Assembly (NCBI RefSeq): GCF_000002425.4
Contig: NC_037261.1
Span: forward strand, 9,600,701 to 9,664,700
DNA: 64,000 bases
DNA from: Physcomitrium patens
Lineage: Eukaryota > Streptophyta > Bryopsida > Funariales > Funariaceae
Reading direction: 5' to 3'
Position numbers and translations under genes: made by a program. Shown here piece by piece: positions 17,862 to 64,000 of the stretch. The notes below the pieces were generated by a model that had not been told where the DNA came from, did not search any database, and worked only from the letters and a program-made list of their open reading frames with translations. Position 1 is the first letter of the stretch, and the number at the start of each line of letters is the position of its first letter.

Positions 17862-17865
17862 TAAG

Positions 17866-21660: not shown

Positions 21661-22290
21661 AGTTGATGCAATTGGAAGGATGAAAGAGGATTGTGGTTCT
21701 TTAACAGAGGTTCGCAGGTTTTTGGGTGCATGTGTATTTTATCGAATCTGGATCCCTCATTTTGCTCACATAGCGGATCCATTATATGAACTGTTACGCA
21801 AGGATTACCGATTTGAATGGGAAGAAAGGCATATTCAGGCAATGCAAAGATTGAAGAAATTTTTGATGTCACCTCCAATATTGAGGAAGGTTGATTATAA
21901 GTGCAATAGACCAGTGATTCTTACTGTAGACGCTAGTCCAATTGCCGTTGGATGGGCTGTGGGTCAAGATGATTCGAATGGGAGTAGATTTGCAGTTCGA
22001 TTTGGGGCTAAAGTTTTAAGTATTCGTCAGCGTGCATATTCGCAAGTCAAAAGAGAACTTTGGGGAGTCGTTTCGGCTATGAAAGCTGAAAAGGACTATT
22101 TGATTGGGGCAGTAGTAGTAATTGAAACAGATTGCTTGCCATTGCTTGGAATGATTATTAACTGTTCAACGCCAGATATTGCAATGTTGAGATGGATTGC
22201 TTATATTAAGTCACTAAATCCAGAATTTAAGCATATCACTGGAAAGGACAATTTAGTAGCAGACATGCTATCTCGAGAAAGATACGAGAG
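21661..22290 (+). CDS. A1: RT end and RNase H
   Basis: RNase H removes the RNA strand during reverse transcription. After the RT thumb (EVRRFLGACVFYRIWIPHFA) comes ILTVDASPIAVGWAVGQDD with the first catalytic Asp, VKRELWGVVSAMKAEKDYL with the Glu, VVIETDCLPLL with a second Asp, and FKHITGKDNLVADMLSR with the last. All the usual anchors are visible in order. Confidence 0.85.
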
Positions 22291-23780: not shown

Positions 23781-23828
23781 ATCAAACAGCAATTGGGTAA
23801 ATTGGTGCATACCGGAGGATGCACAAGT

Positions 23829-23842
23829 TTAGAGGGGATGGA
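23829..23842 (+). other. A1: polypurine tract
   Basis: TTTAGAGGGGATGGA immediately precedes the 3' LTR. A2 and A3 have CAGAGGGGGTGGA in the same place. Confidence 0.7.
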
Positions 23843-27610: not shown

Positions 27611-27614
27611 CCGC

Positions 27615-28842: not shown

Positions 28843-28846
28843 TAAG

Positions 28847-28864
28847 TGGTGAACTCGACGTAAA
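28847..28864 (+). other. A2: primer-binding site
   Basis: TGGTGAACTCGACGTAAA, the A1 tRNA-Trp-type site with two C/T and G/A changes. Confidence 0.6.
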
Positions 28865-28920
28865 AGATTGAGGTAGAAGGTATTGGATTTCGTTTGATTT
28901 TATTTTTATTTTTATTTTAT

Positions 28921-30466
28921 GGAAAACAAAAGTAAAAATTTTGAAGGATTTTTGGGAGGAGTTTCTGGTGGGGGTTCTTCTAAAGGACAAAATATGCACA
29001 TGGATCCGTCTATTACTAGTATGTTTCAAGCCTTTTCATTATCAATATAGCAACAGCAAAGCAATGATCGAAAGGAAGCTTTGGCAACTAAAGCATTGCA
29101 AGCAGTGGTCAATAAAATTGATCAATTTGATGGAAGGAATATTTCAAGGTATTTAAGATATTATATTCGTGAAATGGAATTAAATCGCATTTCTGAGAAG
29201 AAAATGGTTGAATTATTTGGACTTGCCACGATACCAGAGATAAGAGACCACATTACATCGATTACGGATCGTTATGGGAATTCATGGGAGGTTTCTTTAC
29301 ATGCATTGAAAGACGAATATTTCTTTGAAGATGCTGATCGCGTTACTAAGAAGTTAATTCTGGAATGGATTGAACGGCCTAATAAGAATTTGCAAGCAAC
29401 AGAGCTACTAAGGGAATTTGAGAGGCAGTACTCTCAATTATCGAAGGTAAAAAAATTGACATTGGAGTCAAACAAAGTTGATCTATTTCTTCAAGCTGCT
29501 GATGGAGAATTGCAAGGGAAATTAGAACTCCTTCTTGAAGACAAAGAAGAAGATGAAGGATTGACAACAAAGTAGAAGAACGTTGAAGATGTGGTGAGGT
29601 TACTTACAAAAAGAGAAAGGAGGAAGGATAGGAGCAATATTCCGAAAACAGTACAAGCACCCAAAGCTCCAGTACGTACAACACCACCAACAATGCCTAC
29701 AGTTCAACCTTCGACATCCTTATCAAAGAAAGTAGATATGGAGATGGAAGAAATTATACGAGGAATGCGAGACCTTCAAATCAAATTGGCAAGACTTAAA
29801 GAGAATACTTCTATAAATAATTCGAAGAATGTTTCAAAACAAGGATATGTACAAAGATGCATTTGGTGTGATGATGCTTCACACACTAGAAAAGATTGCA
29901 ATGAATTTAATAATATGATACAGCAGGGAATTATTTGCTGGAAAGATGGAAAGATAGCATTGAAAGATAGGGATGATCTTCTTCAAACCAATTTTGGCAA
30001 GGGAGGAATGAGAGCATTGGTTCAAGATTACTTAAAAGAGCATGAAACAGCAGCACGAGAAAGTGTAAGTTATGGTGCTAGAGTAGATGATGACCTTGGT
30101 GGAAGAACGGAAACTAGTGAGTTTTGGGCTTCTGCCATTTCTACAATGCAAGAAGGGAAATTACCTCGAGAAGCGTTATTGAGGACTGCAGCTACAATAC
30201 GAGGTAGAACAGGTTGGGAGGATCCTGTTGAGTCTCTTTCAGTTCATGCATATATTGCTAAGAGCCAACATGAAGCTTTGATGGAAGAAAAGAGACGAGG
30301 AAATTTTGATGATACTAGAGAAGGAAATTCTTCTAAGAGGCAAATTCGAGGAGAAAAGGCTCGAGAGGCAGCTTCACAAGAATTGCCTGTAAAGGATACC
30401 TCAGCATCATTGGAAGAAAAAACAAAGGAGACAAAAGATAACGCAAATCAATTGCTTATAAGATAA
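28921..30466 (+). CDS. A2: gag region
   Basis: Homologue of A1 gag. Capsid-like part at 29081-29575 (VVNKIDQFDGRNISRYLRYY, DEYFFEDADRVTKKLILEWI). The zinc knuckle CIWCDDASHTRKDC and the charged linker lie in 29591-30466. Protein identity to A1 is very high. The coding region is broken. Confidence 0.8.
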
Positions 30467-30492
30467 TTTCTGACATTGAAGCGGCAACAAAT

Positions 30493-31865
30493 TTGAAAGG
30501 GGTGTTGGAAGGACATATATTAAATGCTAAGGTGGAATTCACATTAAAAGAAGTCTTAGAAATTGTAAAAAAGGAGTTTCATGATGTTATCATTGACAGC
30601 ATTAAGCGAAAGAGGCAATTAATGGGCGAAACTGGAATGAGTCATGCTATTGATGCAAGAATATATAAAGATGAAGAAGAGGTTGATATTGGTTACAAGC
30701 AACCAACAAATGAAAAGAATGGTTATAATCAACGAGTACGTTTCGAAGATTATAGTGATAAGGAAATAGAAGCTTTGAGCCATTATACTCGAAAGCATTG
30801 GGCAAGGGCAACTATTGAGGTATTGGTGAAAGTAGGAGATATAGAAGAACCAATAGTTGCTTTAATCGACCATGGTTCTGAAATAAATCTCATGTCTAAA
30901 GATCTTTATAAGAAGCAAAAATGGCCAATTGATGTGGAACATGGATGGACAATACGAGCAGCTAATAACATACAGGGCGAATTATATGGAGCTTTTCCAG
31001 ATGTCAAAATTTGGATTGGGGATGTTGCGACGAAGCAACATTTCTTTGTTCAAGATACAACGTCTTATCCGTTGATTTTAGAACAACCTTACATTATGGC
31101 AACACGGATGGAAACAAAAGTACTTGACGATGGTTCTGCTTATGCAATGGTACATAGCGAAGATGGGAGGAAAGCTGTACAATTTCTAACAGTACCTCCT
31201 AACCATGAACGGAATCGAGATAGGTTGAGGGAGAAACCATTGCCAAAGATTGTTGAAGGATTTAAGGATTTTGGGGACGTACCACTGTAAAGCGAGATTA
31301 TGGAGGTACAAAAGAGGAGGTACTCTTGCGAGATGAAGGTGCCTTTGATGTGAGTTTTATTGGTATATTAGAGAATGGAAATATTATGTATAAGAAAGTT
31401 GATGATTTTAAAAGAAAAGAAAAAAAAAGATTATATAATATTGAAAGAGAATTACGCAAGTTAGGTACATTGCAAGATGATGAGAGGATTTTAGGTGTTT
31501 ATGAAGAAAATGGACTGGAAGATTCATTGGAATTGATTACATCTATTGGGTTAGAGGATAATGATAAGATTGTTGAGATTCATTCAAGAGAGGTTTATAC
31601 CATACTTGAATCTTTTCAAGCACCAAAAGTCACTGTAGAGACGAGATATAAAACGGTAGATAAGAAGGTAAAGCCTGTTGCCGGACCATTGCTAGAAGAT
31701 TCTAAAGAAAAAATAGGAGAAGGATCAAAAGAAGCAAGTTTAAGAGATCCAATGAGTACTGGACATCAATTTACTGAAGAGACTTTTGAAGAATTCAAGA
31801 TTGGTTCTGATGGTTCTTTATTGCCGAAGGAAATTACTAGCTTCAAAAAGATGTTGGCGAAATAA
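30493..31865 (+). CDS. A2: linker, protease and RT leader
   Basis: The open stretch 30493-31290 has the linker (TLKEVLEIVKKEFHDVIIDS) and the protease with VALIDHGSEINLMS near residues 125-138. 31326-31865 is the leader with LPKEITSFKKMLAK at its end. It is collinear with A1 19520-20880. Confidence 0.75.
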
Positions 31866-31904
31866 GGTAGATCGTTTGCCTTCAAATCTGATAAAATTGG
31901 GTGT

Positions 31905-33287
31905 GTGGATCCAAATATTATAACACCTATGGTTATCTTCACTGTACCGCATGTACCTTGGAATCTAAGACCGATTCTAGTACCGAGGGCACATTTACCT
32001 AAATTGATGGAACTATTAAAAGAAAAGATAAAGATGAAAATATTGGAACCTTCATTTGCACCGTACTCTAGTCGATGGTTTACGGTACCTAAGAAGAATA
32101 GGTCACTACAGTTTATTCAAGATATGCAACCGGTGAATGCAGTAACTGTCAGGAATGCAGGAATTGGACCTATTGTGGATGAATTAACTGAGGCGTTTGT
32201 TGGAAGGGCGATCTATTCAATGGGTGACTTCTATTCAGGTTATGATCAATTTCAACTTACCGAAGGAAGTAGAGATATGACAACAATGAGGACACCACTT
32301 GGATTGGTTAAAATTTGCACTCTTTCTCAAGGCGCGACCAACTCAGTTGCACATATGATGAATGGGATGAATAAGGTATTGAGAGATTTTATTCTAAAAA
32401 AGACTATGCCTTTTGTGGATGATGTTCCTATAAAAGGGTGCAGAGAAGGAGACAAGGATGAAACTTTAGATACGAGGGAATGTCGCAAATATGTTGTTGA
32501 TCATATACAAGATTGTGAAAAGATTTTAACTCGACTTGGAGAAGTTCATCTTACATTATCGGGTATGAAGTCCGTATTTGGAATACGAGAGATTGTAATT
32601 GTTGGATATTTATGTGGATCTTATGGAAGAAAACCAGATCCGACTAAAGTTGATGCAATTGGAAGGATGAAAGAGGATTGTGATTCTTTAACAGAGGTTC
32701 GTAGGTTTTTGGGTGCATGTGTATTTTATCGAATCTGGATCCCTCATTTTGCTCACATAGCGGATCCATTATATGAACTGTTACGCAAGGGTTACCGATT
32801 TAAATGGGAAGAAAGGCATATTCAGGCAATGCAAAGATTGAAGAATTTATTGATGTCACCTCCAATATTGAAGAAGGTTGATTATAAGTGCAATAGACCA
32901 GTGATTCTTACTATGGACGCTAGTCCAATTGCCGTTGGATGGGCTGTGGGTCAAGATGATTCAAATGGGAGTAGATTTGCAGTTCGATTTGGGGCTAAAG
33001 TTTTAAGTATTCGTCAGCATGCATATTCGCAAGTCAAAAGAGAACTTTGGAGAGTCGTTTCGGCTATGAAAGCTGAAAAGGACTATTTGATTGGGATAGT
33101 AGTAGTAATTGAAACAGATTGCTTGCCATTGCTTGGAATGATTATTAACTGTTCAACGCTAGATATTGCAATGTTGAGATGGATTGCTTATATTAAGTCA
33201 CTAAATCCAGAATTTAAGCATATCACTGGAAAGGACAATTTAGTAGCAGACATGCTATCTTGAGCAAGATATGAGAGGGACGACGAA
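31905..33287 (+). CDS. A2: RT and RNase H
   Basis: One open stretch (452 aa to 33263) carries RT with WFTVPKKNRSLQFIQDMQ, YSMGDFYSGYDQFQLTEGS, TLSQGATNSVAHMM and the catalytic FVDDVPIKG near residue 170. RNase H follows with LTMDASPIAVGWAVGQDD and VIETDCLPLLGM. It is near-identical to A1 in layout. Confidence 0.85.
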
Positions 33288-34766
33288 ATGGTTGAAGATA
33301 TTGATGATGTCGGATTGAAATTCTATTCAATATCAAATCTCAACAAAGAAGACAAGCTATTTCTTGAAGAATCTTATGAAGGAGAATTATTGGATATTAG
33401 TCATTATTTAAATACCTTGACTAAGCAGGGGAATTGGTCTACAGAAAAATTCAAACAAATAAGAAAAAAAGTATATGGATTTTTACTTCGAGATGGATTC
33501 TTATGGAAGAGACCGAAGAAAGGAATTGGGATGCCACAATGAGAAATAGGAAAAAGGGAAGAAAAACTAAAATTATTAAAGGAGTTTCATGATAGTTTAT
33601 GGGCAGGGCATAGAGGAATTTGGGCTACTTTTGCTAAACTCAAGGAACGATATTGGTGGAAAAATATGTATCAAGATGTGCTCTCATTTGTAGAGTCATG
33701 TGAAATCTGTCAATCGTATTCTAATATCCGACATCAAGATGGTCTTCATCCTACGTATCCTCTAGCTATTCATTTTAAATGGGTTGTTGATTTGGTTATT
33801 ATGTCGGTTGGGTTATGGCAGATGAGATATTTGGTTTTAGCTCGTGAAGATTTATCAAATCAAGTAGAAGGAAGAGCATTGAGGACAAAATCTACAGAGG
33901 GGATTTGTAGGTTTTTGCTTGAAGATGTCATTTGCCGTTACGGGTGCGTAGGAAAAATCACTGCAGATCGTGGAGAATTAAATGCACAAGAAGCTCGTAA
34001 GTTCTTTGAAAAATGTGGAGTTAAACTATCACTGACTACTGCTTATAATCCGGAAGGGAATGCGAAAAGTGAACGTGGTCACCCGCCGATTGTGAAAGCA
34101 TTGGTTAAAGCTTGTAATGGGAAGGTTAAAGAGTGGCCACGGCTTTTGTCATTTGCATTATGGGCTGATCGAACTACACATAGTTCGGTGACAGGATATA
34201 TGCTAGTAGAACTTATTACATGTCGAGAACCAATTATGCCGATTGAAGAAAAGGTACTTACTTGGAGTATGCTACGATGAGAAGATGGATTGACAAGAGA
34301 AGAACTTCTGGCTATTAGGATTCGACAATTGTAGCAAAGATCGGAAGATGTGCAGATAGCATTGGAATGGTTAAAAAGAGCAAGGTTACGAAACAAGGCG
34401 CGATTCGACAAGCAACATCGATTGAGACCTAAAACAATTGAAGAAAGTGACTGGGTACTTGTTTATGACGATAGTCTGAATAATCAACATAGTACTTTGC
34501 GGAAATTTTCAAAACGTTGGTTTGGACCATATGTAGTAACAACTGTTCATGATAATGCAACTTATTCGTTATGGGAGTTAGATGGTACAAAATTAAAAAT
34601 ATCAATTGTAAGGAAGCGAGTAAAAATATTTAAACGAAGACACGCGGAGATGAATATGGAAGACCTTAATGAAGGTATAGAAATTCCGCAACAAGAAGAT
34701 GAAAGTGATTTAGATAATGAAGGTGAGGAAGACAAACAGGACAAAGATGTAGAGGATATATTCTAA
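33288..34766 (+). CDS. A2: integrase
   Basis: A zinc-binding region (HDSLWAGHRGIWATF, near 33588), DDE core in 33666-34280 (WVVDLVIMSVG, ITADRGELNA, EGNAKSERGHPPI) and C-terminal GPY/F-like and acidic tail in 34350-34766 (DWVLVYDDSLNNQ, RKFSKRWFGPYVV). As in A1 there is no chromodomain. It is broken in a few places. Confidence 0.82.
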
Positions 34767-34815
34767 ATTAAACAGCAATTGGATAAATTGGTGCATACCG
34801 GAGGATGCACAGGTT

Positions 34816-34828
34816 CAGAGGGGGTGGA
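34816..34828 (+). other. A2: polypurine tract
   Basis: CAGAGGGGGTGGA stands directly before the 3' LTR start TGTTGTGTTGTAAC. Confidence 0.7.
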
Positions 34829-35900
34829 TGTTGTGTTGTAACATGAGTATACCGTGAAAATATAAAGAAAGGGGACTTTTATTAATACTTAGTTATTTCG
34901 AATATTGGGGGCAACGACCAATTCCAGTGCAAATATTGGGAGGCCAAGGTCACTCACCCTGTTACAGTCAGCCGGGGCATACTGAAATGCTCCGTTCGAT
35001 TCCAATAACGGGAGTCAGCAAAAAAGGAAAAGGACCAATTCAACAACGGGTGAGCCTCGTTCGAAGAGCCAATTGGATCCAATTTCAAGACATCCAATTT
35101 GGGTCCTCTTACCCAATATGAGACTTGAATTGGTCGGGCAACCCAATGCAGTCTAATTACGGGAAAATCCAGGTCTTACTACGGGCCTCAGCCAATCTGA
35201 TGCGAAGGACCAATTTGATCCAATTACGGGAACATCCGGGTCTTACTACTGGACTCTTATCCAATATGAGACCTAAATTGGTTGGGCGATTCATTGTGGT
35301 CCTGATTACGGGGCTCCGATTTCGTTTCAGGCTGTTCCATCCTTTGTGCCATTCCGGAACATCCTTTCGGTAAAAGGATCTCTTAAAGGTAAAAATGGAG
35401 GAGAAATCTCTGACGGTGAGAGCCAATTTCAGATCCAAGCTCTGACGGCGGGAGCCAATTTTGGATCCAAGATGGAAGATTGAAGAAATTCAGAATTAAG
35501 GTTAAGAAATGAGAGGGGGGAGAGGAGAGTTTTTTTTGAGAAGGATCAAAGAGCTAGCTTCATACTTCGGGCAGGGAAAAAAGACAAAGAATTGGATATT
35601 TTTTCTTCATAGGGTTTTGAGAAGACTGAGGCAATCATTGCTGAAGTCAGTGTTGTAATGGTGAATCGGGATTTTTAATGAAGTGGGTTTGATTACTCTT
35701 GACTGTTTTGTGAAATCGAGTTACGTCTGTGATGAAGAATTAAAAGGGTGTCTATAGGATTGAGTATGCGGAGTGAATGAAACTTATTGGGTTAATCTAA
35801 GGAGACAGTCGGTGGATACAAGATCGTTAGTATAAAGCGGTATCGAAGATTAGCAGTTTGAGTTCTTCGGGGTTCTCTGTAACGTCTAGAGACCTATCAG
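34829..35900 (+). repeat. A2: 3' LTR, left part
   Basis: Collinear with the A2 5' LTR up to TCTAGAGACCTATCAG, where A3 is inserted. The remaining 191 bp follow at 40793-40983. Confidence 0.88.
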
Positions 35901-37490
35901 TGTTGTGTTGTAACACAAGTATATTGTGAAAATATAAAGAAAGAGGACTTTTATTAATGTTCAGTTACCTCGAACATTGGGAGCAATGACCAATTCCAGT
36001 GCAAATACTCAGACGCTAGGTTTAGTCACCCCGTTACAATCAGCCGGGGCTCACTGAAATGCTCCGTTCGATTCCAATAATGGGAGTCAGCAGAAAGGGA
36101 AAGGACCAATTCAACGACGAGTGAGCCTGGTTCGAAGAGCCAATTGGATCCAATTTCAAGACATCCAATCCAGGTCTTACTCAATATGAGACCTGAATTG
36201 GTCGGGCAACCCAATGCGGTCCAATTGCGGGAACATCCAGGTCTTACTGCGGGCCTCTTATCCAATATGAAACCTGAATTAGTCGGGCGACTCAATGTTA
36301 TCCCGATTACGGGGCTTTGATTCTGTTTCAGGCTGTTCCGTCCTTTGTGCTGTTCCGAGAACGTCCTTTCGATAAAAGGATCTCTTAAAGGTAAAAACGG
36401 AGGAGAAAGCTCTGACGACGGAGCCAATTCTTGATCCAAGACAGCGGGAGCCAATTCCGGATCCAAGACGGAAGATTCAAGAAATTCAGAGGTTAGGGTT
36501 TGAAAGAGGGGAGAATTAAGGCTAAAGAGGAGGATAGGTTAAGAAATGAGGGGAGAAAAGAGTTTGGAGAGGGAGGGGGTTTCAGATCGGGTTTTTAGAT
36601 CGAAGAGCTAGCTTCAAGCTCTTTTCAAGGTCACTAGTTTGATTTCATTAGGGTTTGTGAGGGGAGAGCAATCGCTACTCAAAGTCAGTGTTTATTTTGG
36701 TGTTTCGGATTTATATAAAACATTGATGTTTTGCATTCTCAATCGGTTTGTGCAAGTCGTGTAGCATCTATAGGTCAAAATTTGGTATTGTCTGGATAGT
36801 TGGGCGTGCTAAGTGTATACAAAAATTTGTGTTAATCTAACAATGCAATCAAGAGATATCTGGGTTTTAGTACAAAGGGTTGTCGAAAGTTGGTAGTCTA
36901 GGGTTGGATAGGGTTTCTGTGATATCTAAAGATCTACTAGTTGGATCGACGTAATTTTTGGCTTGGTAATAGAAGATTTGGAGATCAAGCGGCTATTCAA
37001 TTTTGAGTTGGAGTTAACGGTTGACAAAGGAGAAATCACTTCTGGAGTTTCTACATCAAATTTCAAGGTTGCGGCCGAGTGTCATCAGTGCAGTTTTTGG
37101 GAGTTTTCTTGCAATCTGTAAGTTGAGTTGGGCTGAAATTTTTTGAGCATATAGAAGGCTTATACTGGTATTTAGGTGCAAAATTTCACACTAAGTGGAC
37201 GGTTGGATCAAAAGTTACAACTTGTCAAAGCTCACTGGCTAGGGTTAGGGCTTGTTAAAAAAAAAAAAAAAAAAACAACTTAATTATAAAAGAAATAAAG
37301 CAATTGGAATATTGTATGGTTAAAATGACTATGAGGAGTATTTTTAAATACTTGGAAATTGATATTTCGATTATATTCTTCATACATGGATAAAATCTAT
37401 TAGAGTTTCTTTGTTATTTGCAAAAACAACTATACCTTCTACAGCCAGATATCCAGTGTATTCCCGAACAAGACAACACGTAATACGACA
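35901..37490 (+). repeat. A3: 5' LTR
   Basis: 1590 bp, TGTTGTGTTGTAACACAAG to ACACGTAATACGACA. The first third shares modules with the A1/A2 LTRs. The rest (TCACTAGTTTGATTTCATT, a poly-A run at 37259-37275, AAGTGGACGGTTGGATC) is peculiar to A3. Confidence 0.88.
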
Positions 37491-37494
37491 TAAG

Positions 37495-37512
37495 TGGTGA
37501 ATCCGACGTGAA
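37495..37512 (+). other. A3: primer-binding site
   Basis: TGGTGAATCCGACGTGAA, one change from the A1 site and the same 4-bp offset from the LTR. Confidence 0.65.
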
Positions 37513-37744
37513 CGTTTGGGGTAGTAGGTATTGGATTTTGTATGTGGTTATTTGGATTGATGGTGCAAGATGACAAGGTTGATTTTAGAGTTTTTGGAAG
37601 ACTTGGAGCTTTGGAAGATATTTTGAAAAGCAATAGTGATATTTGGATTATTATGGAGTATATTATGGCTTTATAGACATCTTGGGGCATTTTGAGGTAT
37701 CATAAGTTATTTATTGGAGCATTTCAAGGGATATTTTTTTAACA

Positions 37745-38533
37745 TTGTGGAAGAAAATGGAAGATATTTCAATGAAGTCTTTGGATAGGTTGAATACTTT
37801 GGATGGACCAAATGTTAAAGAGTTTTTTGCGGCTTTTTATATATTTATGGAAGAACAACAAAAGATACAAGCAATTGAAAGGGATATCACAAAGGTATTA
37901 CAAGGAATTTTCAACAAATTTGGGAGGTTTAACAGATGCAACATCACTAAGTTTTTACAAGTTTATACATGTGAGATGGAGACATGCCAAATCCCTGAGG
38001 CAAAGATGATTTCAAGCTTTTATTTGGCTATTGAACTTGGGATTCATAAAAAGGTGAAGATATTACTTGAAAGGGGTGTAGAAACATGGTCAAAATTTCA
38101 AGAACTTTTGAAGAAAGAATTTATTGATGCAAATGAGTATAAAATTACCAAGCGACAGTTTTTGGATTGGATAGAATTACAACCAGGCACGCATATGGAT
38201 CTTTATGAATTCTTGAAAGAATTTGAAAAGAGGTTTTATCAACTGTCATCCTCAGAGAGACAATCATTGGATGCTATAAAAATAGAATTGTTTTTAAATG
38301 GTCTTCATGATGCCATGGGAGACAAACTTTTTATACTTCTTACAGATGAGTCTACGGAGAGTGGTTGTACTAACAATTGGGAAGAGTTGAAAGAAGCAAC
38401 AATTCTTTTAGCAAAGCAACAAAGAGCACAAGCTAAAGGAGTTGGAGTATGGTCTAAGAAATCTTCTACTTTGGCTTCTATATCATCTTTATCAATACAA
38501 GGGATTAATCTTGAAAAAAGAGAAATGGAATAG
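37745..38533 (+). CDS. A3: divergent gag
   Basis: 262-aa frame related to A1/A2 gag along most of its length: FNKFGRFNRCNITKFLQVYT against NKIDQFDGRNISRYLRCYV, KKEFIDANEYKITKRQFLDW against KDEYFLEDADRVTKKLFLGW, and LYEFLKEFEKRFYQLSSSER against ATELLREFERQYSQLSKVEK. The zinc knuckle region is not present. The N-terminus (residues 1-50) is extra. It would act as structural protein of the particle. The divergence suggests that A3 separated from A1/A2 long ago and kept its own gag. Confidence 0.75.
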   Translation: MWKKMEDISMKSLDRLNTLDGPNVKEFFAAFYIFMEEQQKIQAIERDITKVLQGIFNKFGRFNRCNITKFLQVYTCEMETCQIPEAKMISSFYLAIELGIHKKVKILLERGVETWSKFQELLKKEFIDANEYKITKRQFLDWIELQPGTHMDLYEFLKEFEKRFYQLSSSERQSLDAIKIELFLNGLHDAMGDKLFILLTDESTESGCTNNWEELKEATILLAKQQRAQAKGVGVWSKKSSTLASISSLSIQGINLEKREME

Positions 38534-38572
38534 CAACTGGAGGACTTCAAAGGAGGAGCCAATTTTTTGTAA

Positions 38573-39436
38573 ATGAAAGAAAGTGGATCTTTTATCAAGG
38601 ATGGTGAAGGAAAGAACAAAGACTTTGATCAAATTATTACTATGGAAGGTCAAAATATCAAAAAAATTGAAGGCAATATGGAACTCAAGGATTTAGAAAT
38701 TAATGACAATAAGGATGAAAATTATGGCTATTCTACATTGAATATGTTTATGCAAGTGGATGATGGCAATTTGGATGGAACATCTCATGGTGGTAAAAAA
38801 GATTATGGTGAAACTTACAAGATTTTTCAAGAACATGAGGTTTCACAAGGCTATGAAATTTTTCAATATTATGAAGTAATACAATATATTGAGATAACAC
38901 AAGGTTATGATGTTTCACAAGAATGCATTCAAGAAGAAATGAAGGATGTTTTACAATGATACATTTAAGAAGAAATGATAGATATTTCACAAGATAATGT
39001 GGTGAAAGAAGATTATGGAATCAAAGGTAAAGGTACTAAATCAATGGCTTTAATCAAGTTAATTGTGAGTACTAAGCTTTTGGACCAAGATCAAGGTTAC
39101 ATGCATAATGCACATGTATTTAGGGCACAATTGGATTTTGATAAGAAAAAGATTCATCATGAAGTGTGGAATTCAAAGGTTGAAAATCTAAAAATCTTCA
39201 AATATAAAGACATGGGCAATGGATTTAAGGATTATATGGACGTCTTAAATCAAGCATGGAATCAAAAGAACAAGAAAAAAGATGCAAGCAAGATGTATGT
39301 GGCCATATGGAAGAAGTTTCAATTAAATCTTTCCATTTCAAAATTTGTACCCCGCCAATGGTTTGGTCATGTACAAAGTTGGATGTTTCCAATTTACTTG
39401 TACAAGATGGATACATGGATTTTTGGTATTGGATAA
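38573..39436 (+). CDS. A3: frames of unknown function after gag
   Basis: Two open stretches (38573-38959 and 38975-39436). The first contains imperfect repeats around QGYEIFQYYEVIQYIEITQG and EVSQGYDVSQECIQEE, built from 15-bp DNA units such as TTTCACAAGGCTATG. I recognise no domain. They occupy the place of pol but show no pol motif. They may be repeat-expanded spacer. Confidence 0.45.
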
Positions 39437-39484
39437 AGAATAATGGTATAGTGAATTTGGCACATACCAGAGGATGTGCAAGTT

Positions 39485-39497
39485 CAGAGGGGGTGGA
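39485..39497 (+). other. A3: polypurine tract
   Basis: CAGAGGGGGTGGA before the 3' LTR, identical to the A2 tract. The preceding GGCACATACCAGAGGATGTG is also shared with A1 and A2, so the 3' internal end is common to autonomous and non-autonomous forms. Confidence 0.7.
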
Positions 39498-40792
39498 TGT
39501 CGTGTTGTAACACAAGTATATTGTGAACATTGTTTGGGCAACCCAATGCCGTCCAATTGCAGGAACATCCAGGTCTTACTGCGGGCCTCTTATCCAATAT
39601 GAAACCTGAATTGGTCGGGCGACTCAATGTTGTCCCGATTACGGGGCTCCGATTCCGTTTCAGGCTGTTCCGTCCTTTGTGCTGTTCCGAGAACGTCCTT
39701 TCGGTAAAAGGATCTCTTAAAGGTAAAAATGGAGGAGAAAGCTCTGACAACGAAGCCAATTCCGGATCCAAGACGGAAGATTCAAAAAATTCAGAGGTTA
39801 GGGTTTGAAAGAGGGGAGAATTAGGGTTAAAGAGGAGGATAGGTTAAGAAATGAGGGGAGAAAAGAGTTTGGGGAGGGGGGGGGGTTTCAGACCGGATTT
39901 TTGGATCGAAGAGCTAGCTTCAAGCTCTTTTCAAGGTCACTAGTTTGGTTTCATTAGGATTTGTGAGGGGAGAGCAATCGCTACTTAAAGTCAAGTTTAT
40001 TTTGGTGTTTCGGATTTATATAAAACATTGATGGTTTGCATTCTCAATCGGTTTGTGCAAGTCGTGTAGCATCTATAGATCAAAATTTGGTATTGTCTGG
40101 ATAGTTGGGCGTGCTAAGTGTATACAAAAATTTGTGTTAATCTAACAATGCAATCAAGAGATATCTGGGTTTTAGTACAAAGGGTTGTCAAAAGTTGGCA
40201 ATCTAGGGTTGGATAGGGTTTCTGTGATATCTAAAGATCTACTAGTTGGATCGACGTAATTTTTGGCTTGGTAATAGAAGATTTGGAGATCAAGCGGCTA
40301 TTCAATTTTGAGCTGGAGTTAACGGTTGACAAAGGAGAAATCACTTCTGGAGTTTCTACATCAAATTTCAAGGTTGCGGCCGAGTGTCATCAGTGTGGTT
40401 TTTGGGCGTTTTCTTGCAATCTGTAAGTTGAGTTGGGCTGAAATTTTTTGAGCATATAGAAGGCTTATACTGGTATTTGGGTGCAAAATTTCACACTAAG
40501 TGGACAGTGAGATCAAAAGTTACAGCTTGTCAAAGCTCACTGACTAGGGTTAGGGCTTGTTAAAAAAAAAAAAAAAACAACTTAATTATAAAAGAAATAA
40601 AGCAATTGGAATATTGTATGGTTAAAATGACTATGAGGAGTATTTTTAAATACTTGGAAATTGATATTTCGATTATATTCTTCATACATGGATAAAATCT
40701 ATTAGGGTTTCTTTGTTATTTGCAAAAACAACTATACCTTCTACAGCCAGATATCCAGTGTATTCCCGAACAAGACAACACGTAATACGACA
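39498..40792 (+). repeat. A3: 3' LTR
   Basis: 1295 bp, same ends as the 5' LTR and very similar to it, though shorter. The poly-A run recurs at 40563-40577. Confidence 0.85.
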
Positions 40793-40983
40793 CTGGCTGG
40801 GACAAAAAGGACTTTGGCGAGCAGTCGAAGGGCATCCGTATAGATTTACGATATATTCTTGCAGTTGTTTATATTCCAACAATCAAAAATAGATAGACTA
40901 TTTGAATATTAGCGAATCTCTATACTACCTTCTATAGCCAGATGTTCGGCGCGTTCTCGAGCAAGAAAGCACGTAATACAACA
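40793..40983 (+). repeat. A2: 3' LTR, right part
   Basis: Continues the A2 3' LTR from CTGGGACAAAAAGGACTTT to GCACGTAATACAACA. CCGC follows as the right target duplication of A2. Confidence 0.88.
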
Positions 40984-43074: not shown

Positions 43075-43343
43075 TCTAAGAGAAGGACAGAAATGACTCT
43101 ATAAGAAGACAATATTGGTTTAGAAGAAGGTACTCCGCAACCTCTAAAATGCCTTAAGAGCTTCAAGAAAAGGGGTAATCCACTCTCTCCAAGAAGAATA
43201 AGACTCCAATATTGTAACAAAAGAAGTATCAGTTTAGAGGAGGGTAATCTGCAACCTCTAAAATTCTAGTACACTTCCAAGCAGAGGAGTAATCCGCACT
43301 CTAACGAGGAAGAAACTAACTCTGATATCTGAGGTGAGTGAAG
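43075..43343 (-). other. B1: untranslated leader
   Basis: Between primer site and gag. It holds repeated TTAGAGGAGGGTAATCTGC/CCTCTAAAATGCC-type words found in three imperfect copies (about 43110, 43220 and 43260), also present in B2 (58380-58610) and D (49280-49380). It has no convincing gene. It is probably the packaging leader. Confidence 0.55.
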
Positions 43344-43352
43344 TCTTGACAA
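43344..43352 (-). promoter_or_regulatory. B1: putative self-priming primer-binding site
   Basis: The minus strand TTGTCAAGA lies 2 bp from the LTR end. It differs by one G/A change from the exact complement of TCTCGACAA in the LTR (43482-43490). That LTR segment begins about 35 nt downstream of the TATA box (43518-43525), where the transcript should start. Confidence 0.6.
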
Positions 43353-43354: not shown

Positions 43355-43752
43355 TATTACGGACAAAGAAATACAGACTCGAGATCTAATAAGAAGTTCA
43401 AGAAGAACTAGTAAGAATTAGATTAATCAGATGAATATAAGAACAACACCAGAGAGGTGAGCTAGAGCTCCAAGAGATGTGTTGTCGAGATTGAAGAACT
43501 CTTCAACCTCGATTTCAATATATACTCCTATTTAGGAAGCTTCTCAAGTAACTTCTACCAACTAGGAAGCATCTAGAAGGTTCCAGAGACTTGCTTCTAG
43601 AAGATTCTAGAAACTTGTTTCTAGAAGGTTCTAAGGATTATGTCCCTAACATCTTCTACCAACTAAGAAGCTTTTAGAAGATTCCAGAGACTTGCTTCTA
43701 GAAGGTTCTAGAAACTTGTCTCTAGAAGGTTCTAAGGACTATGTCCCTAATA
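43355..43752 (-). repeat. B1: 5' LTR
   Basis: 398 bp, longer than the 3' LTR because the U3 start with its TTCTAGAA repeats is partly duplicated (43590-43670 and 43670-43752). A similar duplication is seen in the B2 3' LTR. Confidence 0.85.
43594..43613 (-). promoter_or_regulatory. B1: heat-shock element array
   Basis: TTC-ta-GAA-ga-TTC-ta-GAA: four perfectly spaced inverted pentamers, the consensus for heat-shock factor trimers. More partial copies lie on both sides. It stands in U3, upstream of the TATA box at 43518-43525. Confidence 0.7.
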
Positions 43753-49200: not shown

Positions 49201-49386
49201 TTCAAAGAAAAAAACTTGATCTATGGTATAAAAAAAAAATAAAAATAAAAGAATATTAAAAAAAAGAACAATATTAGTCTAGAGGAAGGTAATCTGCAAC
49301 CTCTAAAAGGCTATAGTACTTTCAAGAAGAGAAAGAATCTACTCTCTATCAAGAAAGATCAAGCTCTTAATATTGCTTTATGGCAA
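49201..49386 (-). other. D: untranslated leader
   Basis: Same CTAGAGGAAGGTAATCTGC words as in the B1 leader, and no frame. AT-rich and partly simple sequence (49230-49270). Confidence 0.45.
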
Positions 49387-49395
49387 TCTTGATAA
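49387..49395 (-). promoter_or_regulatory. D: putative self-priming primer-binding site
   Basis: The minus strand TTATCAAGA is 2 bp from the LTR end. It is complementary, but for one G/A-type change, to CTTGACAA in the LTR (49513-49520), which lies 34-36 nt below the TATATATAC box (49548-49556). Confidence 0.5.
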
Positions 49396-49397: not shown

Positions 49398-49828
49398 TAT
49401 TAGGCACCATATACAAGTCAAAGATTTAAGACGAAGAAATAGAGTTAGCTTGATATTAGAACAACAATTGGATACAAGACAAGAAGGTCTTGACTAAACC
49501 ACAAAAAGTGAATTGTCAAGCTTTAGGATCTCTTCAGCCTTGATTCTTATATATACTAGGTCCTAGAAAGCTTCTTGAGAAATTTCTATGAAGCTTGGAA
49601 ACAAAGCAAGCCTAAGATCCTTCTTCGATAACTTCTTAAATCATCCAAAGTCTCTTAGAACCTTCTAGGATCTCCTTTGACTTTCTAAAACTTTCTTAGA
49701 ATCTATTGGAACCTTTTAGAACCTTCTTAGAATCCACTAGAATCTTTTTGAATCTTTTAGAACCTTCTCAAATCTTCTAGAACCTTCTAGATCTTATTGG
49801 AACCTTCTTCAATTGTATGTCAATGACA
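49398..49828 (-). repeat. D: 5' LTR
   Basis: 431 bp; minus-strand start TGTCATTGACATAC. U3 is almost wholly made of AGAACCTTCTAGAA-type words (49640-49815), with perfect heat-shock pentamer runs such as TTC-ta-GAA-cc-TTC at 49775-49787. ATGAT follows as target duplication. Confidence 0.7.
49774..49788 (-). promoter_or_regulatory. D: heat-shock element array
   Basis: TTC-ta-GAA-cc-TTC, three perfectly spaced pentamers; more occur at about 49660, 49720 and 49800. It lies upstream of the TATA box at 49548-49556. Confidence 0.55.
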
Positions 49829-52720: not shown

Positions 52721-52916
52721 AGAGTAATCTACAATCTCTAATATTAAATGAAAATTTCTATAGAAAAAGATAATCCACTATTTTTAAGGAAAAGATTAGT
52801 GTTTAAAAATTAGATTATTTATTTAAAGGTAGATAGTCTGTAAACTTTAAAATACAACAATAGAAGTAGAATAATCCACTTATTTCTAAAAAAAGATAAA
52901 AATAGTAAATTAGCAC
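52721..52916 (-). other. E: untranslated leader
   Basis: Same repeated AGGAGAGTAATCTACAATC-type words as in the B and D leaders, with no frame. Confidence 0.4.
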
Positions 52917-52925
52917 TCTTGTCAA
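52917..52925 (-). promoter_or_regulatory. E: putative self-priming primer-binding site
   Basis: The minus strand TTGACAAGA starts 2 bp from the LTR end. The LTR segment at 53093-53101 has TTAACAAGA on the plus strand, so it is complementary at 8 of 9 positions. It lies about 34 nt below the TATA box (53129-53135). Both members differ from the B pair in the same places. Confidence 0.5.
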
Positions 52926-52927: not shown

Positions 52928-53459
52928 TATCAAAGACTTGAATCTTGAAAAAAAAAATCTTCAATACACTCTTATGACACTGAAAAGAACTAAAAAGTCA
53001 CTCAAAGAAGATATATTATTGAACAAGAATGGATATTTCCAAAAACAAAAAGACTTAAAAGTCTTGAAATGAGATTAAGAATTAAAAAATTGTTAACAAG
53101 AATAAAGAAGGCTTCACTCTTGCTTCCATATATACTCTTAACTAGGAGCTATATGGCAATGTTCTACAAGACCTCTAAAACATGTTGACTTTGCAAGACA
53201 TGTATCTTAATTTGCAAGATAAGTTTTTTGTATGTATGCCACCTAGTTAGCTATTAACACATGGTTAACTTGTTGACCAAGTGTATATCATAAGCCTATC
53301 AATCAACTATAAATATATGTTAAGTCAAAGTAACATCTATGAAGCTTCTAGAAAGCTTTTCTAAAAGGTATTATGAGATTAATCTACTTTTATTTATTTT
53401 TATTTATTTCTACCTAATCATATAGGTATTTACTAGTATACATATGTATATTCATGACA
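52928..53459 (-). repeat. E: 5' LTR
   Basis: 532 bp on the minus strand from TGTCATGAATATACATATG to TTTGATA. It contains GAA-gc-TTC-ta-GAA at 53341-53353 and the TATATATGG box. It is the mirror image of the plus-strand LTR at 1216-1765. Confidence 0.65.
53341..53353 (-). promoter_or_regulatory. E: heat-shock element
   Basis: GAA-gc-TTC-ta-GAA, three perfectly spaced pentamers in the E LTR, upstream of the TATA box. Similar motifs are at 1306-1319 and around 53935-53953 in the related LTRs. Confidence 0.5.
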
Positions 53460-58039: not shown

Positions 58040-58082
58040 AGTTAGGGACATAATCCTTAAAACCTTCTAGAGACAAGTTTCT

Positions 58083-58126
58083 AGAACCTTCTAGAAGCAA
58101 GTCTCTGGAACCTTCTAGAAGCTTCC
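58083..58126 (+). promoter_or_regulatory. B2: heat-shock element array
   Basis: 58084-58096 is GAA-cc-TTC-ta-GAA. 58108-58125 is GAA-cc-TTC-ta-GAA-gc-TTC, four perfectly spaced pentamers. A further GAA-gc-TTC lies at 58148-58155. Together they stand 12-83 bp upstream of the TATA box, a normal place for heat-shock factor sites. Confidence 0.72.
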
Positions 58127-58166
58127 TAGTTAGTAGAAGTTGCTTGAGAAGCTTCCTAAATAGGAG

Positions 58167-58209
58167 TATATATTGGAATTGAGGCTGAAGAGTTCTTCAA
58201 TCTCGACAA
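58167..58209 (+). promoter_or_regulatory. B2: TATA box and probable transcript start with self-priming segment
   Basis: TATATATT starts at 58167. TCTCGACAA at 58201-58209 begins 34 nt downstream, where a plant TATA-driven transcript would start, and is the exact complement of the 9 nt at 58339-58347. Confidence 0.65.
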
Positions 58210-58338
58210 CACATGTCTTGGAGCTTTAGTTCACCTCTCTAGTGTTGTTCTTGTATTCATCTGATTAATCTAATTCTTACCAGTTCTTCTTGAACTTCTT
58301 GTTAGATCTCGAGTCTGTATTTCTGTGTCCGTGACAGT

Positions 58339-58347
58339 TTGTCGAGA
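58339..58347 (+). promoter_or_regulatory. B2: putative self-priming primer-binding site
   Basis: TTGTCGAGA, 2 bp after the 5' LTR. It shows no TGG start and no visible tRNA match, but is exactly complementary to the transcript 5' segment at 58201-58209. In Tf1/sushi-type chromoviruses the 5' end of the mRNA itself primes at such a site. Confidence 0.65.
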
Positions 58348-58616
58348 CTTCACTCACCTCAGATATCAGAGTTAGTTTCTTCCTCATTAGAATGTAGATT
58401 ACCTCTCTGCTTGGAAGTGTACTAGCATTTTAGAGGTTGCGAATTACCCTCCTCTAAACTGATACTTCTTTTGTTACAATATTGGAGTCTTATTCTTCTT
58501 TGAGAGAGTGGATTATCTCTTTTTTTGAAGCTCTTAAGGCATTTTAGAGGTTGTGGAGTACCCTCTTCTAAACCAATATTGTCTTCTTGTAGATTCATTT
58601 CTGTCCTTCTCTTAGA
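58348..58616 (+). other. B2: untranslated leader
   Basis: Repeated CATTTTAGAGGTTGCGAATTACC-type words (about 58430, 58540), as in B1. No gene seen. Confidence 0.5.
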
Positions 58617-59632
58617 ATGGCCAGAGGCCAAGACATTAGTAAGACGAAAAGTTCGGAGTCTAAGTTGGATGCTATCATGAATACCCTCGCTATGTTATCG
58701 TAAAGAACTGTAGAGATTGAAGGAGTCGTGGCAAGGCTTCATAATGATGGAGCATCTGGGATGGCACAATCTAGGTTGCACCAGCTTCAAACTTCTGCAC
58801 TTGGAGAAGTAACTTTGCCTCAGGCTTGATAAGCATCACTGATTCTATAACATAAAGAGCTCCGAGTTAGCCTTCCGGACAAGTTCGATGGTACACGTTC
58901 CAAGTTTTGAAGATTCATCAATCAAATCAGGTTGATAACAGTTTTACAGCCCGAATACTATCCAACGGAGGAGTCACGTGTTAGGCTTGTTGGAACCTTA
59001 CTTATAGGACAAGCTCTATCATGGTTTACTCTCTTGTTTGAGAAACGATCGTCCATATTAAACAACTTTGAAACCTTTTTGGAGGCATTTGCGGAAGCAT
59101 TTGGTGAACACAACAAGGTTCGATGGACTACAACAAAGATCCAGTCACTACGACAAGAGATGCACTCTACATCAATCTATGCATCGAACTTCAGGCAATT
59201 AATATGTAACATCAATTGGGACGAAGAAGCGTTGATAAATCAATTCTATTGGGATTTAAGGGATGATGTGAAGGATTTGCTGTTAACTCTTCCTGATCCA
59301 CAAATGCTCAACAAAGCTATTAGCTAAGCTGTGAAGTGCGATAATCACATATTCCAACGTCACCAAGACCAACGTTCAAGACATGTCCCAACTATGTCGA
59401 TAAGCAGCGTAAATACACATTCAGAGATAGAAGACATGCAAATTGATGCGGTAAGTGTCAAATTCCTTACCCTAGAAGAAAAAAAGTGACATATGGAGGA
59501 AGGTCTATGCTTGTATTGCGGTGAAGAAGGCCACAAAGTTGGAAAATACCCCAAGAAGCAAAATCGACGTATTGTCAGGACTAGAGGCACGTTTTTTCAG
59601 GAAAACAAGGATGCCCAGTTACAATAGGAACC
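58617..59632 (+). CDS. B2: gag region
   Basis: Starts MARGQDISKTKSSESKLDAI at 58617. The open stretch 58932-59327 has QPEYYPTEESRVRLVGTLLI, WFTLLFEKRSSILNNFETFL and FYWDLRDDVKDLLLTLPDPQ, a typical Ty3/gypsy capsid (retrotransposon gag domain). A zinc-knuckle region (CLYCGEEGHKVGKY) lies near 59509-59550. It would build the particle. Broken in several places. Confidence 0.8.
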
Positions 59633-59908
59633 GTGCGGCTAGATAGTGAAATATCACAACAACAACCAGGTTCCTTTCTTTCCGCTCAACTTGCCTTTTG
59701 CTTTACAATCCCTTTGCTTATTGGCCCTCAGAAACTGAGAACCTTAGCATTATTAGATTCAGGAGCATCTGCTTGTTTCTTAGACGAAGAATTTGTAAAG
59801 TGTCATAAGATCCCTTTAGTATAAAAATCCAAACCTGTTCATATTGAGGTCATAGATGGGCGACCTTTATTATCTGGTAGTGTCACCCATGAATCAAAAC
59901 CTATAGAA
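59633..59908 (+). CDS. B2: aspartic protease
   Basis: [20 protein letters not shown] with the D-S-G-A site near residues 42-45 of the stretch starting at 59633, preceded by [10 protein letters not shown]. The C-terminal part ([30 protein letters not shown]) runs into the next frame. It processes gag-pol in this family. Confidence 0.82.
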
Positions 59909-60898
59909 GTGATGTTTAAGGGCCATAGTAGTCATATTATTTTTTATATTATTAAAATCCCATCAAATCTTGTTATTCTTGGTCTTTCTTGGTTAGAAAA
60001 GTATAACCCATCCATAGATTGGAGGTTGCGGAAGATGACCTTTCCCACAAAACCATCCAAGAGCAAGCCTAGTAGAAAACCTCGAATAGAGAAATCCTTA
60101 TTCATTGGAGCAAGAGCATTTATAAGATCGTCCAAGGAAGGCACACCGTTTGTCATTTATGCGACTCCAACTATCGGGGAAAAGATCTCGACAACAAGTA
60201 TACCTGAGCAATATAAGGATTTTAAAGACGTGTTTCAAAAGAAGAATGCGGACATGCTACAAGAACACCGACCATATGATTGCACCATAGACTTGCAGGA
60301 AGGAGCACAACCGTCTTTTGGCCCAATCTACAATCTATCGCAGATGGAATTGGCGGAGTTGCGGAAGTACATTGATAAGAATCTAGCCAAGAACTTCATC
60401 CGTCATTCAAAATCGTCAGCTGGAGCACCCATCTTATTTGTAAAGAAGAAAGATGGCTCGTTGCGGATGTGCGTGGACTATCGAGGCCTCAACAAGATAA
60501 CAAAGAAGAATCGTTATCCATTACCCTTGATTTTTGGTCTCTTAGAACAACTTGGACATGCAAGGATCTTTACAAAAATTGATCTAAAGGGAGCTTACAA
60601 CCTCGTACGAATGAAGGAAGGAGATGAGTGGAAGACAGCATTCCATACAAGGTATGGCCATTTTGAGTATAATGTCATGCCCTTTGGTCTTACCAATGCT
60701 CCAGCGGTCTTTCAACATATGATGAATGACATTTTTTGAGAGTACCTTGACGATTTTGTTGTCATCTATTTAGATGATATTTTGATATTCTCCAAAAACG
60801 AGGAAGAGCATGAAAAGCACGTTTGTTTGGTCTTAGAGAAACTATGCGAGCAAGGACTATATGCCAAGTTGGAGAAGTGTTTATTTCACTAAATAGAG
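59909..60898 (+). CDS. B2: reverse transcriptase
   Basis: Open from 59909 to 60739. It has [80 protein letters not shown] (motif A), [20 protein letters not shown] (motif B) and, near 60755-60790, [18 protein letters not shown] with the catalytic Y-L-D-D. A standard chromovirus RT. Confidence 0.88.
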
Positions 60899-61840
60899 AT
60901 GGAGTTTCTGGGGTTCATTGCGACTACGGAAGGCTTGAAGATGGATCCCAAGAAAGTGGACCCCAAGAAAGTGGAAGCAATCGTATCTTGGGAGGTTCTG
61001 AAGATGGTTAGAGACGTACAATACTTTCTTGGTTTTGCCAACTTCTATCAGATCTTCATCAAGAATTACTCTCAAGTTACTACTCCTCTCACTCGGTTGA
61101 CATACAAGGATAAGCTCGAATGGGGACCTCTAGTGGAGAAGGCGTTTCAAGACCTGAAGACGGCATTTACTACGGCTCCAATCTTGGTACATCCAAACTT
61201 TATAAAGGCCTTTTATTTAGAAACTGATGCTTCGGATTTTGCTTTGGGAGCTGTACTTTCACAAATGGGAGAAGACAAGAAGCTCCATCCGATTGCATTC
61301 TATTCTCGAAAGTTCTCTGCTACTGAAATCAATTATGAGATCCACGATAAGGAACTTCTTACTATAGTGGATTCTTTCCAAGAATGGTGTCACTTTCTTG
61401 AAGGAGCTGCACATCCAGTGACCATATACACACATCACAAGAATTTGGAGTATTTCATGTCGGCTCGAGTTCTAAATGGACGTCAAGCTCGGTGGAGTAT
61501 GTTGCTATATAGGTTCGATTTTGTTATCACTTATCGACTTGGGAAGCAGCAAGAATTATCTGATGCCTTATTGAGGAGATCGTATCTTGTACCAAAGGCT
61601 GGAGAAGTAGCATTTGATCAACAATGTACGACATTGTTGAAGCCCGAGCAATTTCAGCTTTGCACTACTATTGTGCCAATTGATGCTGACTTCTTGAATC
61701 AAGTTCATGCCGTGACCATTGAAGATTCAGTAGCCATTGATATTAAGCAGCATGCCAATGACAACAAGTTCAAGGTGGAAAGAGATCTTTTATACTTTGA
61801 AGAGCAGTTATATATCCCAAAAGGACCAGCACGACTCTGA
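60899..61840 (+). CDS. B2: RNase H and connection
   Basis: 313-aa open stretch. It starts at the RT thumb (MEFLGFIATTEGLKMDPKKV, YFLGFANFYQIFIKNYSQVT). RNase H has KAFYLETDASDFALGAVLSQ (Asp), HPIAFYSRKFSATEINYEIH, DKELLTIVDSFQEWCHFLEG (Glu) and FVITYRLGKQQELSDALLRR (Asp). The connection ends ERDLLYFEEQLYIPKGPA. Confidence 0.88.
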   Translation: MEFLGFIATTEGLKMDPKKVDPKKVEAIVSWEVLKMVRDVQYFLGFANFYQIFIKNYSQVTTPLTRLTYKDKLEWGPLVEKAFQDLKTAFTTAPILVHPNFIKAFYLETDASDFALGAVLSQMGEDKKLHPIAFYSRKFSATEINYEIHDKELLTIVDSFQEWCHFLEGAAHPVTIYTHHKNLEYFMSARVLNGRQARWSMLLYRFDFVITYRLGKQQELSDALLRRSYLVPKAGEVAFDQQCTTLLKPEQFQLCTTIVPIDADFLNQVHAVTIEDSVAIDIKQHANDNKFKVERDLLYFEEQLYIPKGPARL

Positions 61841-62760
61841 GTTCTTCAATCTCGCCATGATTTTCTAGCTGCGAGATATTTTAGATTCAACAAGACCTTG
61901 GAGCTTATTACTTGAGATTTTTGGTGGCTCCAAATGTGGAAGGATGTGAAAGATTTTGTCCTCTTCTACGACATCTGTTCAAGATCCAAGAATCCTCGGC
62001 ATCGTCCTTATGGACTCTTATAGCCATTGTCAATTTCACATCGACCATGGTCTTCAATTTCCATGGACTTCATCACAGACCTGCCATCATCGAACTCATT
62101 TGACAGCATCTTTGTCGTGGTAGATCGGCTTACAAAGATGGCACATTTTGTCCCTTGCAAGAAGACATCGTCTAGTGAAGTCACAGCAAGGCTCTTTCTC
62201 AATAATGTGTATCGATATCATGGACTACCAGATGATATTGTATCAGATCGAGTAACCCAGTTCGTATCAAAGTTTTGGAGATCTCTCTTTAAGATACTGG
62301 AGGTGGATATCAAACTTTCTTCGGCTTTTCATCCTCAAACTGATGGCCAAACAGAACGGGTGAACTAAGTCTTGAAACAATACTTATGATATAGCATCAA
62401 CTATCAATAAGACATCTGGACCACATATCTGTCGTTAGCCGAGTTTACATATAACAACACCCTCCATGCGTCAACTCAATACACACCATTCTTTTCCAAC
62501 TATGGATATTATCTAAAGCTTGATTTATTGAGTCTGTCAACAAATAACAATCCAGTAGCTGAAGGATTTGTGAAACAACTATCAGAGCTTCAAAATACGT
62601 TGAAGCTTCAATTACAATCCGCTCAAGAATCCTACAAGGCGTCTGCAAATAGATTTCGGAATCAAGCACCTACTTTCAAAATTGAAGATAAAGCATGGCT
62701 TCTTCAATAGAATATCAAGACCAAGCTACCATGTGATAAGTTGGACTATCAAAGATTGGA
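61841..62760 (+). CDS. B2: integrase
   Basis: The zinc-binding part lies near 61850-62000. The DDE core is in 62027-62368: [20 protein letters not shown] (Asp), [20 protein letters not shown] (Asp), [13 protein letters not shown] (Glu). 62528-62710 has [20 protein letters not shown] and [20 protein letters not shown], the C-terminal GPY/F-type region. Broken. Confidence 0.83.
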
Positions 62761-63065
62761 ACCATTTATCATCCAGAAGCAAATCAATCCAGTGGCGTAC
62801 CATCTGGAATTACCGGCTTCTATGAAGATACATCCAGTCTTTTATATTTCTCTGTTAGAGCCTTATCGAGAGTCATCTTTTTCTGGAAGAGTGTAATGTC
62901 CGCCACCTAGTATTGAGATGGAGAACCATGAGGAATACGACATTGAAAAGATGATGGATTCATGGTGAAGGTGGAGCAAGTTAGAGTATCTTGTTCATTG
63001 GTGCAGCTACGACATTAATGAGCGAACGTGGGAGCCAGCTAAAAATCTCGCCAATGTGCCACAAA
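62761..63065 (+). CDS. B2: chromodomain
   Basis: The integrase tail ([20 protein letters not shown]) leads to a chromodomain around 62920-63050. [30 protein letters not shown] and [12 protein letters not shown] follow the YLVxWxxYxxxxxTWEP pattern. Chromodomains bind methylated histone tails and bias where such elements insert. Confidence 0.8.
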
Positions 63066-63153
63066 AGGTACAGGAGTTTCATCAACAACATCCTCATATA
63101 CCTAAGTCAATTCGACGATAGCTTCCTTCTGAAGCTTGCTTACCGAAGAATAT

Positions 63154-63656: not shown

Positions 63657-64000
63657 TGTTAGGAATATAATCCTTAAAACCTTCTAGAGACAAGTTTCTA
63701 GAATCTTCTAGAAGCAAGTCTCTAGAACCTTCTAGAAGCTTCTTAGTTGGTAGGAGATGTTAGAGATATAGTCCTTAGAACCTTCTAGAAGCTTTCTAAT
63801 TAGTAGAAGTTACTTGAGAAGCTTCCTAAATAGGAATATATATTAGAATCAAGGCTGAAGAGTTCTTCAGTCTTGACAACACATCTCTTGAAGCTCTAAC
63901 TCACCTCTGTAGTGTTGTTCTTGTATTCATCTGATTAATTTAGTTCTTGCTAGTACTTCTTGAACTTCTTGTTAGATCTCGAGTCTATATTTCTGTGTTC
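63657..64000 (+). repeat. B2: 3' LTR, cut by window end
   Basis: Starts TGTTAGGAATATAATCC. It repeats its own start near 63747 (TGTTAGAGATATAGTCC), so U3 is partly duplicated, and ends in TATTTCTGTGTTC, about 8 bp before the expected LTR end. Heat-shock motifs run through 63680-63820, and TATATATT is near 63838. Confidence 0.85.

Follow-up and report, generated by a model that had tools for sequence, protein, structure and literature searches.

The self-primer of Tf1 of fission yeast consists of the first 11 bases of its RNA, which are complementary to a segment just inside the 5' LTR (PMC7175516, PMC10085805, PMC4600332). The RNA is cut between bases 11 and 12 (PMC7175516), and a pretzel structure of three duplexes has been described for it (PMC7175516, PMC10085805). 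Among plants, the survey by Neumann et al. (2019) predicted self-priming for most Tcn1-clade elements of mosses and club mosses, in contrast to other plant chromoviruses, under the rule that the complement is at least 10 bp long and starts 0-5 bp from the LTR (PMC6317226). Self-priming is predicted there for TAR-lineage plant elements too, but these belong to another superfamily, Ty1/copia (PMC6317226). Novikova et al. (2010) placed the chromoviruses of Physcomitrium patens with fungal Tcn1 and, in their account of SM-Tcn1 of Selaginella, reported no recognisable site (PMC2864245). Our search of the open-access literature for self-priming moss Gypsy LTR elements yielded only the work of Novikova and Neumann. 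RLG1, the chromodomain gypsy family that dominates the P. patens genome, has transcripts in protonema; its tree follows that of the plant species less closely, which the authors of that study take as a possible sign of transfer from fungi (PMC7466625). Self-priming in moss chromoviruses has likewise been cited as support for an ancient transfer of Tf1/sushi elements into plants (PMC6317226).

In this study, we analysed a stretch of 64,000 nt on contig C9 of P. patens (the window), which contains four related elements: two copies of family B (B1 and B2), one of family D and one of family E. It is highly probable, as judged from sequence comparison, that B, D and E belong to the Ty3/gypsy retrotransposons, B2 having a chromodomain, and that they prime reverse transcription with their own RNA in the manner of Tf1. 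B2 is a plus-strand copy that extends from about 58042 to beyond 64000. Its 5' LTR (58042..58336, left edge approximate) is repeated at 63658-63998, where the second LTR is cut by the window end, and its right end GTGACA (58331-58336) agrees with the LTR ends in the 3' LTRs of other copies. The coding remains lie in interrupted frames at 58911..63121 on the plus strand and comprise gag, reverse transcriptase, RNase H, integrase core, SH3_Tf2-1 and chromodomain, according to Pfam and the list of open reading frames. Pfam was run separately on eight open pieces, and six gave a family and two did not. Reverse transcriptase, RNase H and integrase in gypsy order with a C-terminal chromodomain identify B2 as a chromovirus; the frames of D and E were read by eye. 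The nearest solved reverse transcriptases by sequence were 4ol8_A and the Ty3 protein 7q5b_A.

The moss elements of the Tcn1 clade (PMC6317226, PMC2864245) and those of the window are alike in moss-type host, chromodomain, absence of a tRNA-type site and predicted self-priming. The 11-nt pair described below agrees with the rule of the Tcn1 survey (PMC6317226), and we see no essential difference from the clade. The pair very probably marks a Tf1-like self-priming site, in elements that are putative Tcn1-type moss chromoviruses. Three cage-aromatic positions have been described for the group I chromodomain (PMC3350952). By eye, these are kept in B2, as Y in EEYDIEK and as W and Y in VHWCSY, with a stop codon between the two motifs; since they are common to other clades of non-seed plants, they are not decisive for the Tcn1 clade. 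The organisms named among the 120 listed of 3003 protein matches were the fern Adiantum nelumboides and the fungus Absidia glauca. The Adiantum protein was 62% identical to the RNase H piece of B2, though the Tcn1 clade is described as confined, among plants, to mosses and club mosses (PMC6317226). A search for relatives in IMG/VR gave one pattern match and none that was confirmed. Family B looks like RLG1, which is likewise an abundant chromodomain gypsy family; the likeness is drawn from copy abundance and host. The family that carries the pairing is probably one with transcripts in a model moss.

We then determined the complementary segments of B2. The TATA box TATATATT of the 5' LTR is at 58167..58174, and the segment AATCTCGACAA, which we presume to be the RNA 5' end and the self-primer, is at 58199..58209, 32 nt from the TATA start. 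The primer-binding site TTGTCGAGACT is at 58339..58349, preceded by GT at 58337-58338; all three are on the plus strand. Primer and site form 10 of 11 Watson-Crick pairs, with A in place of G at primer position 2, and the counterpart of the primer in the 3' LTR is AGTCTTGACAA at 63869..63879 (plus strand). The preliminary description had reported an exact complement of 9 nt in B2, and this is present: TCTCGACAA at 58201-58209 begins 34 nt below the initial T of the TATA box and is complementary to TTGTCGAGA at 58339-58347. As a unit, however, the 9 nt did not hold, and the length in the family is 11 nt. Among 5000 random k-mers from the window, the score of the B2 11-mer was reached by 0.06% at 28 to 37 nt from the TATA start and by 1.8% anywhere in the LTR stretch.

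The same layout was found in the other three elements, all of which are on the minus strand. B1 is broken up by later insertions; its 5' LTR is near 43752-43355 and its 3' LTR near 15896-15576, and GCATG at both outer flanks represents a 5-bp target duplication. Its self-primer segment AATCTCGACAA is at 43482..43492, with the 3' LTR counterpart AGTCTCGACAA at 15703-15713, and its primer-binding site TTGTCAAGACT at 43342..43352 has one mismatch across the 9 nt. The relatives D and E lie near 49.4-49.8 kb and 52.9-53.4 kb, respectively; where bodies close by can be aligned with B, the match is about 65-68%. In D, the self-primer segment AAGCTTGACAA is at 49513..49523 and the site TTATCAAGATT at 49385..49395; in E, ATTCTTGTTAA is at 53093..53103 and TTGACAAGAGT at 52915..52925. 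The 9-mers of B1, D and E start 34, 34 and 33 nt below the TATA start. The best 11-nt complement in the examined LTR stretch lies 31-32 nt below the TATA start in all four window elements.

The pairing of the window's D is weak (7/9, or 9/11 as an 11-mer), and random k-mers matched its score in 67% of cases as a 9-mer anywhere in the LTR, in 3% as a 9-mer at this geometry and in 0.3% as an 11-mer at this geometry. With 5000 random window k-mers, the chance for the 11-mer at 28 to 37 nt from the TATA start was 0.04% for E, 0.22% for B1 and 0.3% for D, and anywhere in the LTR stretch it was 2.7%, 16% and 17%, respectively. For B1 and D, what is improbable is therefore less the match by itself than its location. 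An E-like LTR about 70% identical to that of E is present at 1220-1771 on the plus strand, with a promoter and the segment ACTCTTATTAA at 1588. No recognisable site matching this segment was found after the LTR end, which suggests that it is probably a 3' or solo LTR.

We next examined copies across the genome (470,438,890 bases in 101 contigs). Ninety-nine copies were measured and none was dropped. The 30 B copies were the best 30 of 40 scored, from 3658 first-look candidates for the B query, and are thus close relatives of the query; they include B2, and each was mapped individually onto B2 coordinates. The 30 D loci include the D of the window, and the 39 E copies were taken besides the window's own from 40 listed places. 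In B, 18 of 30 copies paired at 11/11, nine at 10/11 and three at 9/11, so that 27 of 30 had at least 10 pairs. Seventeen of the 18 fully paired copies carry AGTCTCGACAA with TTGTCGAGACT, and the remaining one (L021) is a variant matched on both sides. In D, no locus paired fully, and 10, 9, 8 and 7 pairs were found in ten, five, nine and six loci, respectively. In E, three copies had 11 pairs, eighteen had 10, twelve had 9, five had 8 and one had 7, giving at least 10 in 21.

The position of the pair is also fixed. The distance from the TATA start to the primer was 32 nt in all 30 B and all 30 D copies and 31-32 nt in all 39 E copies, and the primer-to-site spacing was 128 nt in 29 of 30 D loci and 176-180 nt in the 39 E copies. 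When the primer was slid along the sequence (41 offsets, -20 to +20), offset 0 gave the best mean pairing in each family, at 10.50 in B, 8.63 in D and 9.44 in E against 6.03, 4.63 and 5.85 for the next best offset. The base preceding the primer was C in 29 of 30 B copies; hence the outermost paired base is an A that follows a pyrimidine, which would be a plausible transcript start. GT separates the LTR from the site in 76 of 99 copies. Integrase removes two bases at the LTR end, and the GT spacer fits this. The expected place of the 3' LTR was fetched for 20 B loci and was usable in 11. In six of these 11, the 11-mer was identical in both LTRs and in the site's complement. The 3' LTR alignment ended exactly at TGACA in seven of the 11 and at most 2 bases off in the other four, indicating that the site starts two bases inside the LTR.

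The primer and the site differ between families in a matched manner. Two E copies (L082 and L093) carry ACTCTTGTCAA with TTGACAAGAGT, paired at 11/11; relative to B (e.g. L003), both members of the pair are changed at position 2 (G to C), position 6 (C to T) and position 8 (A to T). At position 2, 22 of 30 B copies have G on both sides, and 18 of 39 E copies have C there. At position 6, C was present on both sides in 27 of 30 B copies and T in all 39 E copies, and D is mixed, with 12 of 30 copies having T and 5 having C on both sides. At position 8, all 30 B and all 30 D copies have A on both sides, and 34 of 39 E copies have T there. Because the change at position 6 is a transition and is mixed in D, the weight lies on positions 2 and 8, which are transversions. 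When pairs were swapped, B primers with E sites gave a mean of 7.40 and E primers with B sites 7.38, compared with 10.50 and 9.44 for their own pairs. If three changes per side fell independently and evenly over 11 positions, the same places with complementary letters would be expected by arithmetic about once in 4,455. The difference between the B and E pairs is a compensatory change between families and counts as one divergence, not many events. For the window's own E, the preliminary description gave two differences from B in both members; this is right for the site, but the LTR segment has three, the third forming a G-U wobble.

Compensating change was thus borne out between families, at three positions on both sides, but was absent among copies within a family. 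Shuffling the sites among copies left pairing unlowered (P 0.30 in B, 0.44 in D and 0.43 in E), contrary to the copy-level covariation that had been proposed as a check. These results suggest that copies decay after insertion and that the matched change sits at the family level. Departures within families were mostly transitions (14/17 in B, 82/99 in D and 63/80 in E), and among the 30 D loci no pair clearly distinct from that of B was found. Three D loci (L034, L049 and L056) first appeared to carry an inherited double change. A genome search placed them and one further place on contig C7 at 6.17-6.46 Mb with 93-98% identity to L034, and they are most simply local duplications and were not counted as such a change. 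The C-to-T change of L021, matched on both sides, was also set aside, since the site is a CpG and two separate decays are possible.

From the sequence, we infer the following course for these elements. Transcripts would begin with the A that lies about 31-32 nt below the start of the TATA box, and their first 11 nt would fold back to pair with the complementary stretch of 11 nt located two bases inside the 5' LTR. RNase H would then cleave the RNA behind nucleotide 11, and the 3' end so released would serve as the primer for minus-strand DNA. The plus strand would later copy the attached primer, so that the site of a daughter copy would be partly written from the LTR; primer and site could therefore change together. 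Tf1-like self-priming is very probable because Tf1 uses 11 nt at the RNA 5' end, as presumed here, although in Tf1 the mechanism has been tested and here it is deduced. There is about an even chance that primer and site evolve in concert in this moss lineage, the site being rewritten from the LTR in each cycle and new primers, still of 11 nt, being reached by matched double changes. If so, the priming sequence would be free to drift, unlike a site that binds a tRNA. The self-priming reading of the preliminary description is well supported: in three families, 11 nt at the presumed 5' end of the RNA can pair with the site, TGG is absent, and B and E show matched differences. Its view that this would be unusual in a plant is weakened by the Tcn1-clade predictions (PMC6317226), and self-priming in this kind of element, even in this lineage, had already been described. 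What is added here is the exact 11-nt unit in single copies, the TATA spacing and the matched family differences. The 11-nt pairs and the family differences give the general prediction of the survey the form of a defined RNA pairing that can be checked.

Priming by an ordinary or half-molecule tRNA, with the LTR match as a by-product, would accord with the tRNA-Met sites that predominate in most plant chromoviruses (PMC6317226). As stated in the preliminary description, the sites do not start in the tRNA manner: TGG was absent from the first 12 nt after the LTR in all 99 copies. By contrast, TGG stands four bases inside the LTR in three other LTR copies of the window (after 17861, 28842 and 37490). 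The sites were also compared with 20 tRNA genes drawn from 63 listed matches in the same genome (Lys, Asn, Gln, Arg and Ile, initiator Met left out). The longest perfect run reached 6 nt in B and 7 nt in E, lengths that 75% and 29% of 300 random window 20-mers attained, so the runs are at chance level. The TGG-type contrast site at 17862 also gave a run of 6 nt, equalled by 82% of random stretches; this set of five amino acids is therefore unable to exclude a tRNA. A tRNA primer would leave the joint difference of LTR and site between B and E unexplained, and we consider this explanation improbable.

It is similarly improbable that the segments pair in the RNA for packaging, translation control or dimer formation while priming takes another route. 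Pairing by itself does not demonstrate priming, and Skipper chromoviruses, mostly without a TGG site, have no LTR complementarity and are described as possibly using other routes (PMC5006619). Against this, the site occupies the place required of a primer, two bases inside the LTR end, and as in Tf1 its partner lies at the presumed 5' end of the RNA. Chance, or common descent of sequence under no constraint, would fit the null shuffles within families and the lack of a clearly distinct pair in D. It is the least likely of these explanations and a very remote one, given the geometry-specific chance for B2 and the different yet equally complementary pair of the E copies, altered at three positions on both sides.

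We also examined RNA structure and conservation with regard to Tf1-like self-priming. The minimum-energy fold of B2 58199-58360 contains the 9-bp helix of primer and site (z only -1.0 against shuffles). In a folding model with slightly more context, the mean pair probability of primer on site exceeded 0.5 in 15 of 30 B copies, 10 of 30 D copies and the one E copy modelled, and was 0.06 for B2 in a slightly longer stretch. Counterparts of the two outer duplexes of the Tf1 pretzel did not rise above shuffled controls in B, D or E (mean z of 0.14 and 1.17, -0.52 and 0.40, and 0.31 and -1.04, respectively), an apparent difference from Tf1. No extra conservation of primer and site was seen among B and D copies: 180 and 99 of 290 windows in B, and 207 and 269 of 280 in D, were at least as conserved as primer and site, respectively. 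This is expected for dead copies and gives self-priming no support.

Two larger LTR elements, gypsy-like by eye and with TGG-type sites four bases inside the LTR, are nested in B1 at 16528-25303 and 27612-40983. In the first (16528-25303), TAAG is followed by TGGTGAACCCGACGTG. About 100 bases of the start of U3 in the B LTR are in tandem in some copies (43650-43750 in the 5' LTR of B1 and 63658-63759 in the 3' LTR of B2), and the LTR length therefore varies.
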